This document shows, piece after piece, positions 4,310 to 15,656 of a stretch of 27,405 nt of DNA. Position 1 is the first letter of the stretch. Every line of letters starts with the position of its first letter. The notes under the pieces were generated by a model, which worked only from the letters and a program-made list of their open reading frames with translations, was not told the DNA's origin and searched no databases. A program made the position numbers and the translations under genes. Where the stretch lies: IMG/VR virus record IMGVR_UViG_3300042350_003533, positions 1 through 27,405 of that record, one strand, 5' to 3'. Source of the stretch: a virus.

Positions 4310-6139
4310 ATGAGTAAAGCAGTTAATGAAGGACAAACTCAAGTCTATTCGGATGGTAGTATTGAACCGCAATATGGTATAAATACTGATGCGCCATATC
4401 TTAATAACCCACCAAAGCAATTACTTGATCTTATTGCAGCTTTTTATAAAAGCGGTAAATCAGATAGTCAAGTTTTAGCAATCTTGGTAGGTATGGGAAC
4501 ACCGCAACAATTGGCATTATCTGGTATTAATGCATTTAAAGCCGCTACTCAGATGTATACAACTGAAAACAATCAAAAAAATCATAACAATATGAAATTT
4601 ACACTTGTAGGCTTATACGAAAATGTAATGAAAGCCATTAATGCATTAAATGAAATGGGAGAAGACAAATCAAGAGTTTCTTATTCTGCTAAAAATGCTC
4701 TTGGTATTTTAGAATCTTCTTTAGGATATTTTCCAATGAGATTCTCGAGCGGAGGTATTTCAATAATTAGCGAAGACATTGAAAATAATGTTAACCCAGC
4801 TCTTAAATATAAGATTGCAAAAACTCTTCATAGAGATCTTTCTTCTTCTGAATGGTTAAACCCAGTTAGAGAATTAAGAAGTTACATTATGGCTTCATAT
4901 GATTCTTCTAAATGGTCATTTAGAATTGCTGAGGCTATTGAAAGAACATCTGCACAAAAAGGTAAACTTTATGAAGGTTTAACTAATCAGTTAGAATCTC
5001 TTTTAAAAGAATCATCTGAAGATATTAAATCTAAGTTTACTTCAATTGCCGTAAAGAATCCTTGGTCTGCTGAATGTAAGAACATTCTAAACGAAATGGC
5101 TTCTTCTGATAAAAAGGCATATTCTAATAATGGAGGTAAGATTGGAAAGATCCTTTCTCCTGTATTAGAATCTGAAGAAGGATTAACATTCCACTTACAT
5201 GGAAAGAATTATATCTTTAATGAAGGCAAGATTTCTGAAACTGAAGTAAAGGATTCACGTTTCTTCGATGTTTTAGAAGGATTAAAAATGTTTAAACTTG
5301 ATGGTAGTTCATTAGTTACTTTTTCTGAAAATGGAAAAACTTTAGAATATAACATTGAAGAAGGTACATTAAGCTTAGGTGGTGTTGATCTTACTAATGC
5401 AAGTATTGTAGAATTAAAAGAATCTTTAATTGCAACTAGATTCTTTGGATATAGAGATCAGTGGAAAACTGATAATGTATGTAAATTCTTTGAGAATGTA
5501 GATCTTTTACACGAAATGGATAATTTCACTGGAATTACATCTACTGAATTCTTAAATCTTTTCTTAACCGTTATTGCTGTTGAGGAAGGCGTTTGGGTTA
5601 ATAAGGTTAACTTAGGAATGCAAATCAATGAAATGAAATTTTATTCATCAGCAACTGAGGTTGTCAAAATGATTAAAGAATTTATTAACTATGATGCATC
5701 TTCTATCTTATCTGAAAGATTAGTTGCTGAAGGAAATCAAAAAGCTATTACTGATAAGAAGAGAAATGAAATTAATGATAGGATCTCTTTCTTGGAAGAA
5801 AAGAAAGGTAGTATTACCGAAGCAATTAATAAATTAGGTAACTCTGAAGAATTACAAGAAGCCTTAAAACTTATCAATACTGAAATTACTAAATTTGAAA
5901 AGGAACTTCAGGAAACTTATTCAATAGTTGAAAAAAAAACTAAAAACCAATACCTAGATAATGGTTTTGTAGAGGCAACAATTGAAAACCCAGTATCAGG
6001 ATTTAAAGTAGATACTCAGGTTTATGTTAATGCTGAAGAATATGCTTCTTTAGGAGATAATGATTTATTAACATTCGTAGATCCTAAAAACGATAAAGAA
6101 CATATCGCTAAGAAAAAAGATCTTAAAGTTAAGCTCTAA
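4310..6139 (+). CDS. Large hypothetical protein, probable virion or assembly protein
   Basis: 609 residues with no family I can name. The N-terminal 90 residues contain LLDLIAAFYKSGKSDSQ and a Gly/Ala-rich helical stretch. The middle (about 290-380) looks like short beta strands (LHGKNYIFNEG, LVTFSENGKTLEY). A helical region follows, and a charged coiled coil occupies roughly residues 473-543. The C-terminal 60 residues look like a small beta domain with Lys-rich end (KKKDLKVKL). There is no signal peptide or membrane segment. A strong late promoter precedes it and a terminator follows, so it is a late single-gene unit after gp15-like. That expression pattern supports a structural or morphogenetic role, but this is inference. 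Confidence 0.8.
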   Translation: MSKAVNEGQTQVYSDGSIEPQYGINTDAPYLNNPPKQLLDLIAAFYKSGKSDSQVLAILVGMGTPQQLALSGINAFKAATQMYTTENNQKNHNNMKFTLVGLYENVMKAINALNEMGEDKSRVSYSAKNALGILESSLGYFPMRFSSGGISIISEDIENNVNPALKYKIAKTLHRDLSSSEWLNPVRELRSYIMASYDSSKWSFRIAEAIERTSAQKGKLYEGLTNQLESLLKESSEDIKSKFTSIAVKNPWSAECKNILNEMASSDKKAYSNNGGKIGKILSPVLESEEGLTFHLHGKNYIFNEGKISETEVKDSRFFDVLEGLKMFKLDGSSLVTFSENGKTLEYNIEEGTLSLGGVDLTNASIVELKESLIATRFFGYRDQWKTDNVCKFFENVDLLHEMDNFTGITSTEFLNLFLTVIAVEEGVWVNKVNLGMQINEMKFYSSATEVVKMIKEFINYDASSILSERLVAEGNQKAITDKKRNEINDRISFLEEKKGSITEAINKLGNSEELQEALKLINTEITKFEKELQETYSIVEKKTKNQYLDNGFVEATIENPVSGFKVDTQVYVNAEEYASLGDNDLLTFVDPKNDKEHIAKKKDLKVKL

Positions 6140-6215: not shown

Positions 6216-6581
6216 ATGCCGAGAAAAAGGAATTACTTAAATAATAGAGATCTTTTAGATGAAATACGTAAATCAAAAGAACTTGATGAATTAACACCAA
6301 AGGCTCTAGAGTTCTTAATGTTATTAGCAGATAAATGTTCTACTAAACTTACCTATAGAGATCCTGCCGATAGAGAAGACTGTATTGCTTTTGCCTATAT
6401 GGATCTTTATCGTTATTGGAGAAACTTTGATCCAGAAAAAAGTGAAAATGCATTTGCATATTTTACTGAAATTGCAAAACGAGGTTTTGCAAAAGGCTGG
6501 AACAAATTACATCCTAAGAAGTATGCAGGTACCGTATCAATTGACGGTAGTGCAGATAGCGAAGGGATTTATACAATCTAG
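6216..6581 (+). CDS. 55: Late-transcription sigma factor, gp55-like (short form)
   Basis: 121 residues, against about 185 for T4 gp55. The N-terminus (NYLNNRDLLDEI) resembles T4 gp55 (YNYVNNKELLQAI). Residues about 51-98 read as sigma region 2: DREDCIAFAYMDLYRYWRNFDPE, then an aromatic helix AFAYFTEIAKRGF. These correspond to core-RNAP binding and -10 recognition. No region 4 is present, as in gp55. The short tail ends SEGIYTI and could be a reduced clamp-binding motif, since T4 gp55 ends with a hydrophobic/acidic motif that binds gp45; that is inference. The many TATATAAA boxes in this window are its expected targets. Followed by gp4 after 10 bases. Confidence 0.78.
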   Translation: MPRKRNYLNNRDLLDEIRKSKELDELTPKALEFLMLLADKCSTKLTYRDPADREDCIAFAYMDLYRYWRNFDPEKSENAFAYFTEIAKRGFAKGWNKLHPKKYAGTVSIDGSADSEGIYTI

Positions 6582-7664: not shown

Positions 7665-9314
7665 ATGGCAGGATTTACAAACAGGCGAGGTCCTCTGACG
7701 GATTCCAACCCGGTAAGAAAGATTCTTAAGGATCTTTCCAATCTAGGTATGGCATACGATGATATGATCATTCGTAATTCCAGAGCAGTAGGATTTACCG
7801 AAAATGCTATGGGATATACAATGAATCCTATGGGATCTGATGCAGACGATATGTATGCTGCATTTGCCGCGTTATCCTTAACTGATACAAGTCTTAAAAA
7901 GAATATTTCATTCTTTGATAAAGACTATGAAAAGAAAAGAGAACAACTTAGAACATTTGCCGTTCAGGATGAAATTGAAGATATCCTAGATGTTATTACA
8001 GATGAAGCAATAGTTTTTGATAAAAGTAATTACTTTGCATATGCAGAGTTTAATGGAGAAATTAGTAATTCTATAGAAGAAGAGATCGGAGATATCTATA
8101 ATAATATCTATAGTTACTTTGGCTTTAACGATGCAGTACAACCTTGGAATTATTTCCGTAAATGGTTGGTTGATGGATATCTTGCATTTGAGATTGTTTA
8201 TAATGATAAGCAAACTGAGATCATTGGATTTAAAGAACTTGATCCAATATCATTAATGCCTGGTCTTGATACTGAAACTGGTAAAAAGATGTGGGTTCAG
8301 TATAAAGGCGGTGGACCAAAGGAAAGAAAACTTTGGGATTCTCAAATCATTTACCTTTCATATTCTCAGGTTAATTCACCACAAAGGATATCATACGTAG
8401 AAAGACTTATTCGTTCCTTTAACCTATTAAGAATTATGGAAACTACCAGAATTATTTGGTCAGTTTCAAATGCGTCATTCAAAACACAATTTATTATCCC
8501 AGTTGGTGGTAAATCTAAAACGAGAGCAAAACAATCTCTTGCACAGTTAATGAATTCATACCGTGAAGTAGTAGACTTTAATTACGAGAGCGGTGAAATT
8601 CAAACTAACGGTAAACCAATGATGCCGTTTAATAAAGAATACTGGTTACCATCTAAAGATGGTGAACAACCTGAAATTAGTACTATCGGTGGAGATGGTC
8701 CTGATCTAGGGGATACTGAAGCACTTAAATACTTTGCTGATAAATTAAAGCTTGCATCAAAGATTCCATTTTCACGATTTGATAAGGAAGGTGGAAATAC
8801 TTATGATATGGAAGCAAGCGGTATGTTAAGAGATGAAATTAAGTTTTCTAAATTTATTGATCGTTTAAGATCAATCTTCCAGGAAATTCTTATTAAGCCT
8901 GCATATCTTCAAATGTGTCTTAACCACCCAGAACTTAAAAACGATGTGGCCTTTAAGGCTGGTTTGGCATTAAGATATATTAAGGATAATGTGTTTGAAG
9001 AAATGAAAGAAATGGAACTTCAAACAAAAAGAGTTGACTTTATTGGTAATATGAAAACTCAATTAAGTACAATGGATGAAAATATGACAGAAATACCATA
9101 TTTTGATCTAGGATGGCTAATTAAGAGATATGGTGGATTTACTCAGGATGATCTAAAAGCAAATGAAAGAGCTAAAGAACGTTCTGACTTAAAGGCACAA
9201 GGGTACACTGAAGAGGATATCGAAAAGATTCTGTTAGGTGCCGACAAAAAACTTTTTAAACCAGAAAAGGATGCAGGTGGCATTGAAGAGGATCCACTGG
9301 CGGGTTTAGGATAA
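7665..9314 (+). CDS. 20: Portal vertex protein, gp20-like
   Basis: 549 residues (T4 gp20 is 524). Diagnostic similarity to T4 gp20 lies in the second half: an EYWLPSKDGE segment at 325-334 (T4 EDYWLQRRDGK), then the GGDGPDLGDTEALKYF region (T4 LPGADNTGNMEDIRWF), KIPFSRF (T4 RVPLSRI), and a helix beginning MLRDEIKFSKFI (T4 ITRDELTFAKFI). The dodecameric portal initiates prohead assembly, forms the DNA channel and docks the terminase. The C-terminal tail is acidic and Gly-rich, as in T4. It is preceded by a strong late box and followed by the protease-scaffold and capsid genes, the same 20-21-(22)-23 order as in T4. Confidence 0.93.
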   Translation: MAGFTNRRGPLTDSNPVRKILKDLSNLGMAYDDMIIRNSRAVGFTENAMGYTMNPMGSDADDMYAAFAALSLTDTSLKKNISFFDKDYEKKREQLRTFAVQDEIEDILDVITDEAIVFDKSNYFAYAEFNGEISNSIEEEIGDIYNNIYSYFGFNDAVQPWNYFRKWLVDGYLAFEIVYNDKQTEIIGFKELDPISLMPGLDTETGKKMWVQYKGGGPKERKLWDSQIIYLSYSQVNSPQRISYVERLIRSFNLLRIMETTRIIWSVSNASFKTQFIIPVGGKSKTRAKQSLAQLMNSYREVVDFNYESGEIQTNGKPMMPFNKEYWLPSKDGEQPEISTIGGDGPDLGDTEALKYFADKLKLASKIPFSRFDKEGGNTYDMEASGMLRDEIKFSKFIDRLRSIFQEILIKPAYLQMCLNHPELKNDVAFKAGLALRYIKDNVFEEMKEMELQTKRVDFIGNMKTQLSTMDENMTEIPYFDLGWLIKRYGGFTQDDLKANERAKERSDLKAQGYTEEDIEKILLGADKKLFKPEKDAGGIEEDPLAGLG

Positions 9315-9359: not shown

Positions 9360-11093
9360 ATGTCAGGAAAAAAACTATTAATTCTTGAGAGATCACAATC
9401 TAATCTATCGTTTAAGACAGATGATGATGGTGCAGTCGTATTAGAAGGCGTTTTTACAGAATTTGGAGTTCGTAATAAGAACAATAGAATATATGAGGAA
9501 AAAGAAGTTTTACCTCATATTAATGAACTTCAAGAAAAGGTAAAGACAAATAAGCTTTTAGGCGAATTGGATCACCCAAAAGATTTTGATATTAGCCTCT
9601 CTAATGTATCACATGTAGTAGAATCTTTAAAATATGATTCTGAAAATAAACAAGTTATTGGAAGAATTCGTTTACTTAATACTACTAAAGGTAAGGAAGC
9701 CCAAGCTTTAATTAAAGATGGTATTCCTCTTCATATTTCAAGCCGTGCTGCTGGAACCGTTGATGAAAGCGGAAAGGTAAAGATTAAGAAATTCTTTACT
9801 TATGATCTTGTAGCAGATCCTGGATTTGAAAATGCAGAACTTGCAAGAGTTAATGAATCTTATGGATTCGATGACGACAATACTTTATTCATTTACGAAA
9901 TGGAAGAAATTAAAAATACAGAAGATAAAAAAGAACCAACAATGGAAAATCAAAATTTTGTAACCGTTGAGGATTTTCAAAAATACACTGAGTACGTTCA
10001 AGGTGTATTGAATAACGTTAAAGAATCCGCCAATTCAGATAATTCTGAAATCGTTGAGAAACTTATTAAATACAGCGAACATATTGCAGAAAAGGTAAAT
10101 CAGTTAAATGATTATGCTGAGTATCTTTCTGAAAACCTAGATAAGAGTATTTCTTATTCTGACTATTTAGCAGAAAATGTAAATAAGATTAAGAGTTACA
10201 CTAGTTATTTAGCTGAAGAATTAGATAACTCTATTCAGTATGCTGAACATGTTGCTGAAAAAGCCGATAAGGGAATCCAATATACAAACTATTTAGGAGA
10301 AAACCTTGAAAAAGGAATTGAATATTCTGAATATGTTGCTGAAAAGGTTGATCAAAATATTGCATATTCTAATTATTTAGCAGAAGGTTTATCAAGGAGC
10401 ATTAAATATTCTGAATACATCGCTGAAAATGTAAACGGTGTTTCTGGAACTGCTATTAATGAATCATCTGTTTCTGAAGAAGAAGGCGTTTGCGAAAAAT
10501 GTGAAAAGGTTCACGAAGGAACATGTGAATCTTACTCTGAAGAAACTAAGTCTAATAAGAAAGAATATAAAGATTCAATTGAAGAAGCATTAAATAAATT
10601 AATTGCAAAAGCTGAAGCAAAAACAAAAGTTGTATCAGAAATGCACTTTATGAACTTCCTTTCTGAGTCTAAGAAAAATGAATTCTCTTCTCTATCTGAA
10701 GAAAAACAACAAATGATTGTTGAATCAATGAATGTAAAACCAATTATGTCAACCGTACAGGCTGAAAACATTTGGGAATCATGCTTTATTGAAAAGAAGA
10801 GAGAATTAAACTTTATCAGCGATATGCCTGAAAAGTATACTGCAAAATGGGAAGCTCTATCAGAATCTCGTAAAGCTCAAATCATTGCAGAATCTAAGTT
10901 CTATACATTAAGTACTCCTTATGCAATTAATAATTTCTGGTCAACTAGAGATTTAAGACCATCTCAGGTTGAATTAGAACAAATTAATGAGAGTAAGACT
11001 GCTGCTGAGGCTACCACCCAAAAAGAACCGTTAGTAAATGAATCATTTGCTGCTGATCTAATCAGTAAGGTTAAGTTCAATATCGGTAGATAA
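9360..11093 (+). CDS. 21: Prohead protease (gp21-like) fused to a scaffold/core region (gp22-like)
   Basis: 577 residues, against 212 for T4 gp21. Residues 1-165 are the protease: GVRNKNNRIY near 36-45, catalytic His72 in LGELDHP, Ser127 or Ser128 in ISSRA, and DLVADPGFENA at 149-159. After an acidic linker the rest looks like scaffold: Glu/Ser/Lys-rich and helical. Residues 238-359 hold about nine 14-residue repeats of the form Y-x-x-Y-hydrophobic-A-E. A C378-x2-C-x3-H-x3-C389 cluster follows, then a helical C-terminal region. (I/V)NES motifs at 164-167, 366-369, 542-545 and 558-561 look like cleavage sites for the protease itself. In T4, protease and scaffold are separate adjacent genes. 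Met195 (9942) could be an internal start for a free scaffold. Confidence 0.88.
   Translation: MSGKKLLILERSQSNLSFKTDDDGAVVLEGVFTEFGVRNKNNRIYEEKEVLPHINELQEKVKTNKLLGELDHPKDFDISLSNVSHVVESLKYDSENKQVIGRIRLLNTTKGKEAQALIKDGIPLHISSRAAGTVDESGKVKIKKFFTYDLVADPGFENAELARVNESYGFDDDNTLFIYEMEEIKNTEDKKEPTMENQNFVTVEDFQKYTEYVQGVLNNVKESANSDNSEIVEKLIKYSEHIAEKVNQLNDYAEYLSENLDKSISYSDYLAENVNKIKSYTSYLAEELDNSIQYAEHVAEKADKGIQYTNYLGENLEKGIEYSEYVAEKVDQNIAYSNYLAEGLSRSIKYSEYIAENVNGVSGTAINESSVSEEEGVCEKCEKVHEGTCESYSEETKSNKKEYKDSIEEALNKLIAKAEAKTKVVSEMHFMNFLSESKKNEFSSLSEEKQQMIVESMNVKPIMSTVQAENIWESCFIEKKRELNFISDMPEKYTAKWEALSESRKAQIIAESKFYTLSTPYAINNFWSTRDLRPSQVELEQINESKTAAEATTQKEPLVNESFAADLISKVKFNIGR
10071..10436 (+). repeat. Tandem 14-residue (42-base) coding repeat in the scaffold region
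   Basis: Eight full copies and one partial copy of a 42-base unit in frame, residues 238-359 of the protease-scaffold protein. Consensus: Tyr1, Ser/Ala2, Tyr/His4, Leu/Val/Ile5, Ala6, Glu7, Leu/Val9, Asp/Asn10, Ile13. Examples are YSEYVAEKVDQNIA and YTNYLGENLEKGIE. Bases have diverged while the protein pattern is kept. Fourteen residues equal two heptads, so a regular helix or coiled coil is likely. A degenerate copy (YTEYVQGVLNNVKE) occurs earlier. Confidence 0.92.
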
Positions 11094-11190: not shown

Positions 11191-12909
11191 ATGTATTCAA
11201 ATCATTTAATTAATGAGGCTGAAGTACAAAAGACGTGGGCACCTATCATTGAGGAGGCTACTGGTATCACTGAGAAGTCTAAGTTATCTTGGATGTCTAA
11301 GTATTGCCACTACCACAATCTTAATGAAAGTGTTTACAATACTGTACACCTCAATCCAAACATGAACGTTCAGTCAATGGGCGCTCCTACTTTCCCTGGA
11401 GATCCTACCTCACTGAACGCATTCTATTCACAGGCCCCAGGTTCTGGTGATAGACCATTCTCTTTGTTGCCACTTGCTATGCAGGTTGCTGCTCAGACTG
11501 TAGGTCTTGATCTTGTACCTGTAGTTCCAATGCAAGGTCCTATGGGAGTTCTTACTTACCTAGACTTCGTATATGGTGGTGGTCGTACATCTCAAGCAGG
11601 TGGAATTAACGGTAACTCTGCTCCGTTAATGATCAAAGTTCCTCTAACTGTTGCTACAGGTGGAGACTTAGCGGCAAATGACCTTATCTATGTTGGTACT
11701 GGTTCATTCGGTGCATACGAATTAACTTACGTTGGTAAGTCTCGTATCGACGGATATCCAATCTTCCGCGTAAGAGGTAAAGGTACTGATGTTGCTCAAG
11801 GAACTGATCCTTATGCACAAGGTGAAGAAGGTTACCAACCAATCTACGTATCAATTACTTCTAGTACTGATGGTTATTCTGATGATCCTTTATCAGTAAT
11901 TCGCGTTAACTTTGACGGGGCTCCTGAATTAGTTAAAGCATTAGAAGACCATATCGTTGGTTTCTCTGGTAATGCCTTTGCTGAAAACAACCCTGCATCT
12001 GGTACACCTACTTTTGGTGCAGAAGCAATCAATGGTGTTGATCCTTATCAAAGAGGAGATGGCGAATCTACGCCTGATAACATCATGGGTCTATCATTGT
12101 TCAACAAATCAGTTGCTGCTAAAACTTATCAAGTTGCTGCCGCTGTTACTCGTGAGCAAGTACAAGACCTTAAGCAATTCGGTATCGATGCAGTTGCTCA
12201 AGTAGAAGCTGTATTGGTTAATGAATTAACTCAATCTATTAACAAGTATATCTTGGATAGAATCTTCAAGAATGGTGTAACTAACGCTTACCAAGTATCT
12301 CAAGTTGATGGTACTGTTCTTTCAGCTGCCTTCACTACAGGTGCTACTGGTGCTGTTGTTATTCCTCTTGGAACTGACAATACTGGCATTAACCGCTCTG
12401 TAACTGTTACTTCAGTATCAGTTGGTGGTGGTGGCGAAACTCAAGGTACATTGCAACGTAGAATCCTTACTAAGATTCTTGCTGCTTCTAACTTGATCGC
12501 TACTCGTGGCCGTAGAGGACCTGCTACTTTCGCTGTAACTGGCGGTAAGATGGCATCTGCTCTTCAGGACATCGCTGGATTCGTTGCTTATCCTCTTTCA
12601 AATACTGTTAACCAAGCTGGTGGTTCTCTTTACCCAATCGGAGCTATCGCAGGTGTTACTGTATATGTAGATCCAAACAGAGACTTTAACGATGTTAAGA
12701 TCGCTGTAGGTCGTAAAGGTGATGGTAACTCTCCTGGTTTAGTATTCATGCCTTACTTAATGGCTGAATCTGTTGAGACAATCGCAGAAGGAACTATGGC
12801 TCCTAAGATCGCGGTTAAATCTAGATTCGACTTAGTAGACGCTGGATTCCACCCACAAACTATGTACTATGTATTGAACTTCAACTTCAACGGAGTTGAT
12901 ATCATCTAA
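11191..12909 (+). CDS. 23: Major capsid protein, gp23-like
   Basis: 572 residues from the ATG at 11191, chosen over the in-frame TTG at 11155 because an A-rich leader directly precedes the ATG, as at other starts here. T4 gp23 is 521 residues. Matching features include an N-terminal QKTWAPIIEEATG segment (T4 NKWKPLLEGEG), the LLPLAMQVAAQTVGLDLVPVVPM region (T4 MVRRAIPNLIAFDICGVQPM), GPMGVLTYLDFVYG (T4 SPTGQVFALRAVYG), and a C-terminal IAGVTVYVDPN strand. The segment LNE at 44-46 followed by Ser fits the T4 protease rule (L/I)xE, so a propeptide of about 46 residues may be removed. The gene uses more C-ending codons (AAC, ATC, TTC) and CGT than its neighbours, a sign of high expression. It ends in a strong terminator. 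Confidence 0.93.
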   Translation: MYSNHLINEAEVQKTWAPIIEEATGITEKSKLSWMSKYCHYHNLNESVYNTVHLNPNMNVQSMGAPTFPGDPTSLNAFYSQAPGSGDRPFSLLPLAMQVAAQTVGLDLVPVVPMQGPMGVLTYLDFVYGGGRTSQAGGINGNSAPLMIKVPLTVATGGDLAANDLIYVGTGSFGAYELTYVGKSRIDGYPIFRVRGKGTDVAQGTDPYAQGEEGYQPIYVSITSSTDGYSDDPLSVIRVNFDGAPELVKALEDHIVGFSGNAFAENNPASGTPTFGAEAINGVDPYQRGDGESTPDNIMGLSLFNKSVAAKTYQVAAAVTREQVQDLKQFGIDAVAQVEAVLVNELTQSINKYILDRIFKNGVTNAYQVSQVDGTVLSAAFTTGATGAVVIPLGTDNTGINRSVTVTSVSVGGGGETQGTLQRRILTKILAASNLIATRGRRGPATFAVTGGKMASALQDIAGFVAYPLSNTVNQAGGSLYPIGAIAGVTVYVDPNRDFNDVKIAVGRKGDGNSPGLVFMPYLMAESVETIAEGTMAPKIAVKSRFDLVDAGFHPQTMYYVLNFNFNGVDII

Positions 12910-14525: not shown

Positions 14526-15656
14526 ATGAAAGAATTAGTAAACTTTGAACATTTTAGAATTATAAAAGAAGCTGAGGTTAGACTAGAGGCTCACTTAGAT
14601 TCTATAGTTGAGCAGGCAATTAATGAAGCCACTCCAAAACAGGCACAGACTAGAGCAGGTGCTCTTTTTCAGAATCCTGTAAAATTTATGAAGATTAAGA
14701 ATAATGCCAAGAAGTATCAACAGGCATTAGTTCAGAAGGCTCTTAATAATGTAGACTACGAAAAGAAAAAGCAAGCCGCTGGTGGAGAAGTAGATAAAGA
14801 TAAAATGGAGGTTCTTAAACAGGCAAATGCTGCAAAGAACCAGGCACTCGCCGATAAAGCTTCTGCTATTTCTGACCGTATGACTACGCTTGCAACTAGC
14901 CCAGGTCTTCAGGCTGTTAAATCTCTTGCAATTTCAAAGGCTAAAGTTGCTGCTGCTGAAACTGCTCTTAAAGCTGCTGATGCTGAAGAGACTAAGCAAC
15001 TTAAGATCCAAATAAAGAAACTTAATGCTCAAGCTGCAAAGGCCGAAGCAGATATTAAAGATTATGAAAAACAAGCTGAGCCTGCAGCAGAAGCACCAGC
15101 AGAAGCACCTCAGCAACAGGAGGAGCCTAAGGTAAAGGCAGAACCTTCCACTGAAGCAGACACCAAAGCATTGGAAGATGCTAAGGCAGCAATTTCTGCA
15201 GCTAAAGCTAATTATGATCAGGTTAAAGACGGTGATGATGAAGGTGCAAAAATTGACGCCAAGATTAAGTTTAAGCAGGCACAACAGAAAAAAGCTAAGC
15301 TTGAAGGTAATGATGAACTTTATCAAGGTCTAGGTGATGATATTGGCGAATTAATGACCCAGAAGCAGAAACTTAGTAAAGAACCTACCGAAACTAAAAC
15401 TGAAGCTACACCTGATCCTCTTGATAAAGAAATAGCAGATCAGGAAGATAAGATAGCTGCAATTAAGAATACGGCAAAAGATAAAAACAGTCCTCTTGCA
15501 AACCCTGAGGTTTTAGCAAAAGCTCTTGAACCAGAAGAAAATAAATTAAAAGAACTTAAAGATAAAAAGTCTGGTAAAAAAGAAGAATCTGCTGGTTATA
15601 TCGGAGAATCATTTACTGATAAGTTTAGACGACTAATGAAAGACGTTAATGTATAA
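14526..15656 (+). CDS. Charged Ala/Lys/Glu-rich coiled-coil protein, candidate prohead core protein
   Basis: 376 residues, dominated by Ala, Lys, Glu, Asp and Gln. Long helices or coiled coils cover most of the chain, broken by a Pro/Ala/Glu linker near 180-210 (AEAPAEAPQQQ). There are no Cys residues or membrane segments. INEA at 32-35 and IGES at 359-362 resemble the candidate protease sites in the capsid and scaffold proteins. The last 15 residues, beginning SFTDKF, resemble the 16-residue tail SFAADL of the protease-scaffold protein. Composition, late promoter and these sites suggest a core or internal head protein like T4 gp22, gp67, gp68 or the IPs. No sequence family is recognised, so this is inference. 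Confidence 0.8.
   Translation: MKELVNFEHFRIIKEAEVRLEAHLDSIVEQAINEATPKQAQTRAGALFQNPVKFMKIKNNAKKYQQALVQKALNNVDYEKKKQAAGGEVDKDKMEVLKQANAAKNQALADKASAISDRMTTLATSPGLQAVKSLAISKAKVAAAETALKAADAEETKQLKIQIKKLNAQAAKAEADIKDYEKQAEPAAEAPAEAPQQQEEPKVKAEPSTEADTKALEDAKAAISAAKANYDQVKDGDDEGAKIDAKIKFKQAQQKKAKLEGNDELYQGLGDDIGELMTQKQKLSKEPTETKTEATPDPLDKEIADQEDKIAAIKNTAKDKNSPLANPEVLAKALEPEENKLKELKDKKSGKKEESAGYIGESFTDKFRRLMKDVNV

Follow-up and report, generated by a model that had tools for sequence, protein, structure and literature searches.

The question raised by this locus is how a phage with T4-type head genes could encode its prohead protease and its scaffold as a single polypeptide and still supply enough of the latter. 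T4 has two genes for these functions, and its proheads contain 576 gp22 to 72 gp21, or ~8 per protease (PMC9026906), so that a fusion needs a means of making extra scaffold. We analyzed a 27,405-base stretch of viral DNA (the window), for which the original prediction had proposed that protease and scaffold are joined in one polypeptide and that no separate gene 22 lies between genes 21 and 23. Both proposals are borne out: the protein is a single 577-residue open reading frame that is maintained in relatives, its extension occupies the gene 22 position directly before the gp23-type capsid gene, and among the open reading frames of the window no gene lies between the two, the likely capsid ATG being 97 nt past the fused-gene stop (Table 1). 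On balance, we consider it probable that a T4 gp21-type protease is fused here to a scaffold, that a nested start gives two products and that cleavage at [LIV]-x-E motifs occurs on maturation. The element upstream of the fused gene, TATATAAA, recurs ahead of roughly half of the genes in the window, which also encodes a gp55-like late sigma factor at 6216-6581; these elements are likely T4-type late promoters.

Table 1 Features of the fused gene and its neighbours (window coordinates)
Feature	Coordinates	Strand	Basis
Portal protein, gp20 type	7665..9314	+	Portal_T4 2.5e-73; upstream of fused gene
Likely late promoter of fused gene, TATATAAA	9334..9341	+	T4 late-promoter-like; putative
Fused prohead protease and scaffold, 577 aa	9360..11093	+	Uninterrupted ATG-to-stop frame, also in relatives
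S77 protease domain, gp21 type, residues 1-166	9360..9857	+	Profile, sequence and structure-model matches
Catalytic His72	9573..9575	+	Opposite mutated His of 5jbl; invariant in 39 diverse relatives
Catalytic Ser127	9738..9740	+	Opposite mutated Ser of 5jbl; invariant in 39 diverse relatives
VNE166/S167, predicted protease-releasing cleavage site	9849..9860	+	Invariant in window family; cleavage predicted
Codons 187-194, probable translation initiation region	9918..9941	+	Strongest synonymous constraint of the gene
Proposed scaffold-only product, 383 aa, from internal ATG codon 195	9942..11093	+	Putative product
Nine 14-residue (42-nt) repeats, residues 238-363, each with [LIV]-[AGS]-E	10071..10448	+	Sequence
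C-terminal module, residues 489-532, MPxxYxxxWxxLSE...FWxTRxL	10824..10955	+	Common to fused family
VNE561/S562, predicted site before C-terminal helix	11034..11045	+	N560 and E561 invariant in window family; cleavage predicted
Major capsid protein, gp23 type	11191..12909	+	Gp23 5.7e-30; ATG corrected to 11191
LNE46/S47, predicted capsid-protein maturation site	11320..11331	+	Sequence motif; cleavage predicted

We looked among relatives for signs of a sequencing error joining two frames and found none. The close relatives (the window family) comprise 80 IMG/VR loci of 69-100% identity, all of which have one long frame except a broken copy (L023) and a locus that ends at the contig end (L031). 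The fused frame is also present in 80 loci related to huge phages of 630-735 kb (the huge clade), where it is mostly ~700 aa long and is cut short in 3 cases. The same single frame recurs in annotated isolates and in ~160 related loci, which come from many samples, and we can for practical purposes exclude that genes 21 and 22 were joined by misassembly or a frameshift error.

By its sequence, the N-terminal part is a member of peptidase family S77. Pfam Peptidase_S77 (T4 gp21) matches residues 24-138 (5.9e-14, 52.5 bits against a curated cut-off of 27), and phrog_207 'head maturation protease' spans residues 8-480 at 1e-38. The sole PDB sequence match of the fused protein is the T4 gp21 crystal sequence 5jbl, which has Ala at both catalytic positions; in the phmmer alignment His72 and Ser127 lie opposite these residues. 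The gp21-like domain of the original prediction is supported by all three matches, and of the residues that it named, His72 and Ser127/128, the catalytic positions fall on His72 and Ser127, not on Ser128. No lambda C-type protease profile scored above its cut-off against the protein; only those of S77/S80 did. The AlphaFold model has a low pLDDT, 51 with close relatives only and 56 in a second run, so nothing but its gp21 fold match (best structural match 5jbl, Foldseek 3e-6) rests on it.

The fused arrangement is not peculiar to the phage of the window. Annotated single coding sequences are found in PTm1, pT24, MA9V-2 (1207 aa), RHph_TM21B, Ab1-TPeters, IME392 and LIS04, and Tenacibaculum, Chryseobacterium, Lak, Rhizobium, Acinetobacter, E. 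coli and Listeria phages are represented among the single-CDS fusions. Genes 21 and 22 are split, or a scaffold-sized ORF stands at the position of gene 22, in T4, C48C1, RaK2, Paride, CP81, Atu_ph04, Kaldavass, Vibrio 2.275.O and PAU; the cyanophages are split. A search for related loci returned one locus each with the PTm1 and Lak-C1 queries and none with RHph. On the protease tree the fused/split label needs at least two changes, with PAU split within a fused clade and LIS04 and RHph on long branches of unsure placement. A single fusion event in Bacteroidota phages only, as read from a first tree, was ruled out by the split PAU and the fused LIS04 and RHph. The name 'prohead core scaffolding protein and protease' was discarded as evidence of fusion, as it is also carried by plain gp21 of ~210 aa, for example in RaK2, Berthold and PspYZU05.

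Some of these relatives have features of their own. In Lak-B5 (L186) and a Lak relative (L310), translation with table 11 meets in-frame stops in the fused gene, presumably TAG codons; in Lak-C1 the gene is open. In PAU, three successive proteins (gp152-154, L311 4244-5828) start with MKT[LI]xxLYEA, two of them with MKTIxxLYEAKLNEA, and these starts resemble the T4 capsid-targeting sequence; gp152, annotated as scaffold, lacks a cleavage motif, and gp155 is more scaffold-like. The MA9V-2 protease gene (L174 2911-6534) carries [LIV]NE[SA] motifs throughout, with [LIV]-small-E-[SAG] occurring 15 times against 1.8 expected, and its counterpart in MA9V-1 measures 4,044 bp; the MA9V-2 gene possibly encodes a multi-product core polyprotein.

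The protease domain is followed by ~400 residues that are mostly helical and partly disordered by prediction (low-confidence model). The description of these residues as scaffold-like holds as regards composition and predicted helix and does not extend to homology with gp22. Profile-profile comparison by hhalign gave no T4 gp22 homology of the scaffold half (no E-value better than 0.01, no probability above 4%) and ruled out a by-eye resemblance of the C-terminal region to T4 gp22 (LSES...LTESQKEK); phrog_237, the gp22 family, has no match in the fused protein. Position, composition and motifs nevertheless mark the back half as the putative scaffold. By hhalign, its C-terminal module matches PTm1/pT24 at 2e-7 to 2e-6 and Lak at ~4e-4, and MA9V-2 weakly. 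A separate gp22 homologue was also sought with phrog_237 in the large or complete records of fused relatives and was not found in records of 225-636 kb, including those of 462, 540 and 636 kb. Both positive controls of this search, T4 and C48C1, were matched; because the scaffold half itself is not gp22-homologous, the search could miss a divergent scaffold elsewhere, and any gp22 search in the window's own record is bounded by its 27,405 bases.

T4 gp21 cleaves after the Glu of L/I-X-E (PMC9026906). The motif [LIV]-small-E occurs 18 times in the scaffold half against 3.6 expected, a fivefold enrichment (z 8.2) that is confined to gap 1, plus gap 7 as an echo of the repeat, and no other protein of the window is enriched above z 2.8. 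With the repeats located by Tyr1 and Tyr/His4 only, the window family retains the P1 Glu in 434/443 units and the huge clade in 624/624, and every unit of both has L, I or V at P3. Similar enrichment is present in the scaffold halves of PTm1, MA9V-2 and pT24, the sequences of which are unrelated, and in the separate scaffolds (gp22) of T4 and RaK2; it was not found in RHph, Atu_ph04 and CP81. Outside the repeats, the protease-domain end carries [LI]NES in 57/57 distinct proteins of the huge clade, and the capsid site reads LNESV in 72/72 window-family loci and INENA in 60 huge-clade loci. Each of these is a predicted cleavage site, judged by its motif.

How the repeats function can be read in two ways. 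We tentatively suggest that the scaffold is a self-destruct array of 9-13 helical units, each bearing the cleavage motif of the protease to which it is fused. In that case a single polypeptide would determine how long the core rod is and how large the exiting peptides are (~14 residues), and the number of units, 9 in the window family versus mostly 11-12 in the relatives of 630-735 kb phages, might be a ruler of head size. Alternatively, and we hold this with similar reserve, the repeats may form a structural coiled-coil rod in which Glu serves packing or salt bridges, with cuts at a few [LI]NE/S sites only. A rod agrees with the prediction of the repeats as a single long helix (AlphaFold, low confidence), with the fair conservation of all repeat positions and with P1' of the window repeats, which is mostly Asn, Lys or Glu, unlike the Ser or Ala of other candidate sites. 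It accords less well with the second Glu of the repeat, which is retained in 294/443 window-family units only, or with the sharing of the motif enrichment by scaffolds of unrelated sequence, and the huge-clade capsid site itself carries Asn at P1'.

The original prediction held that fusion would tie the copy numbers of protease and scaffold together unless an internal start is used. The tie probably does not exist, as several indirect lines point to a conserved start at codon 195. The window family has ATG at this codon, which sits at the boundary between protease and scaffold, and keeps the Met although the linker before it is variable; an equivalent Met occurs in 80/80 huge-phage loci. Just before it, the excess of synonymous identity reaches 0.34-0.45 in the window family versus a mean or median of 0.06-0.11, as scored in 8-codon windows without phylogenetic correction, and the peak ranks fourth in the smallest subset. 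The context of codon 195 is the best among the 8 internal in-frame ATGs of the gene, ranks 5th of 166 in the window and exceeds the median for gene starts (n = 25); Lys, Asn, Asp and Glu are abundant in the linker, so an A-rich start context could arise from composition alone. Shine-Dalgarno sequences precede just 2/25 window genes, as expected for a Bacteroidota phage (host inferred from relatives), and their scarcity makes this criterion uninformative for codon 195. In three fused phages of Proteobacteria, RHph, Ab1-TPeters and IME392, GGAG, GAGG or AGGAG lies 6-8 nt before the equivalent ATG, which in each is the sole in-frame start past codon 100 with an AGGA/GGAG/GAGG core (counting the weaker AAGG as well adds two matches in RHph and one in IME392); the background rates are 0.159, 0.041 and 0.082, with a product of ~5e-4. 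In the huge clade the strongest regional constraint lies 15-22 codons further upstream, on TTTAGGATATATGAA. This sequence precedes the internal ATG by ~40-65 nt and is nearly unchanged across the clade (L228-L307); it includes the rare-looking codons AGG and ATA, is one base off a TATATA core and may act as a promoter within the gene or as some other RNA/DNA signal.

The gene is thus probably nested, encoding the fused protease-scaffold and the scaffold alone. If so, the full-length fusion would be the minor product, carrying the protease into the core, and the scaffold-only protein from codon 195 would be the major one and make up most of the core, the two coassembling through their common helical region. 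Once the shell is complete, the protease would be activated and cut after the Glu in [LIV]-x-E, releasing itself at VNE166/S167, trimming the capsid protein at LNE46/S47 and digesting the repeats at [LIV]-[AGS]-E to short peptides able to exit the head. For these steps there is precedent in T4 or lambda, from which we extend them to this phage by analogy. No fused 21/22 with an internal start is described in the literature searched, most subscription journals lying outside it.

Two other accounts of how the scaffold is supplied have to be weighed against a nested start. There may be no internal start, so that full-length protein alone is made, with a protease on every scaffold subunit and its activity restrained until the shell closes; P2 gpO does have a protease domain on each scaffold subunit. 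Such an account, which we regard as rather unlikely, fits the single open frame, the lack of a TATATAAA promoter before codon 195 and PTm1, in which the boundary Met is absent; together with LIS04, which has no Shine-Dalgarno at its boundary ATG, PTm1 indicates that an internal start is not universal. Full-length protein alone would leave unaccounted for the conservation, start-like context and synonymous constraint at codon 195, the Shine-Dalgarno sequences of the three Proteobacteria phages and the ~8 scaffolds that T4 requires per protease (PMC9026906). The true scaffold could also be the product of another gene, such as ORF 14526-15656 or ORF 4310-6139, with the extension a minor core protein. 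This we consider improbable: the extension already fills the gene 22 position, the phage collection, LR756500 included, contains no relative of ORF 14526-15656, and ORF 4310-6139 appears globular and has one relative. In favor of such a scaffold, ORF 4310-6139 shows enrichment of the motif (z 4.9) once P2 is left free, as [LIV]-x-E, and ORF 14526-15656 is Lys/Ala-rich with INE/A and IGE/S sites.

ORF 14526-15656 (376 aa) follows the capsid gene, its INE/A lying near the N-terminus and its IGE/S near the C-terminus, and both are conserved in some relatives; it is possibly a protein of the head interior or core that carries a propeptide for capsid targeting. The relative of ORF 4310-6139 (609 aa) is in LR756500, ~5 kb upstream of the protease gene there.

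The other fused phages resemble the window in having an S77 protease followed by a long scaffold-like region in one frame, and a capsid gene adjoins the fusion wherever neighbours were read; they differ in scaffold sequences and repeats, and the C-terminal module is clearly common only with PTm1/pT24. With T4 gp21/gp22 the window gene shares the protease family, the interval between portal and capsid genes and an L/I-X-E-type motif in the scaffold, but the scaffold parts have no detected sequence homology. The scaffold Nu3 of lambda is also produced alone, in the same frame. Herpesvirus UL26/UL26.5 likewise combines an N-terminal protease and a C-terminal scaffold in one gene. We know of no 14-residue repeat array in UL26/UL26.5, P2 gpO or Mu I/Z, which, in addition, lack a T4-type gene neighbourhood. 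Protease and scaffold share one gene in lambda C/Nu3 and, N- to C-terminal, in P2 and Mu (PMC8508860), and S77 proteases are relatives of those of herpesviruses (PMC9026906). The lambda protease belongs to family S49 (PMC10695390), not S77, and its second product is known by experiment, whereas here it is deduced. The proposed resemblance to the lambdoid arrangement, with an N-terminal protease running in frame into a C-terminal scaffold, is therefore upheld as a functional analogy: the window gene probably works like lambda C/Nu3, with T4-type parts and no homology.

The window gene is a clear candidate for this arrangement in jumbo and huge phages with T4-type heads, and its repeat array makes both the dismantling of the scaffold and a link between array length and head size testable. 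Should the nested start prove real, phages of the T4 type would have reached the protease-scaffold solution of lambda and the herpesviruses with components that are partly unrelated.
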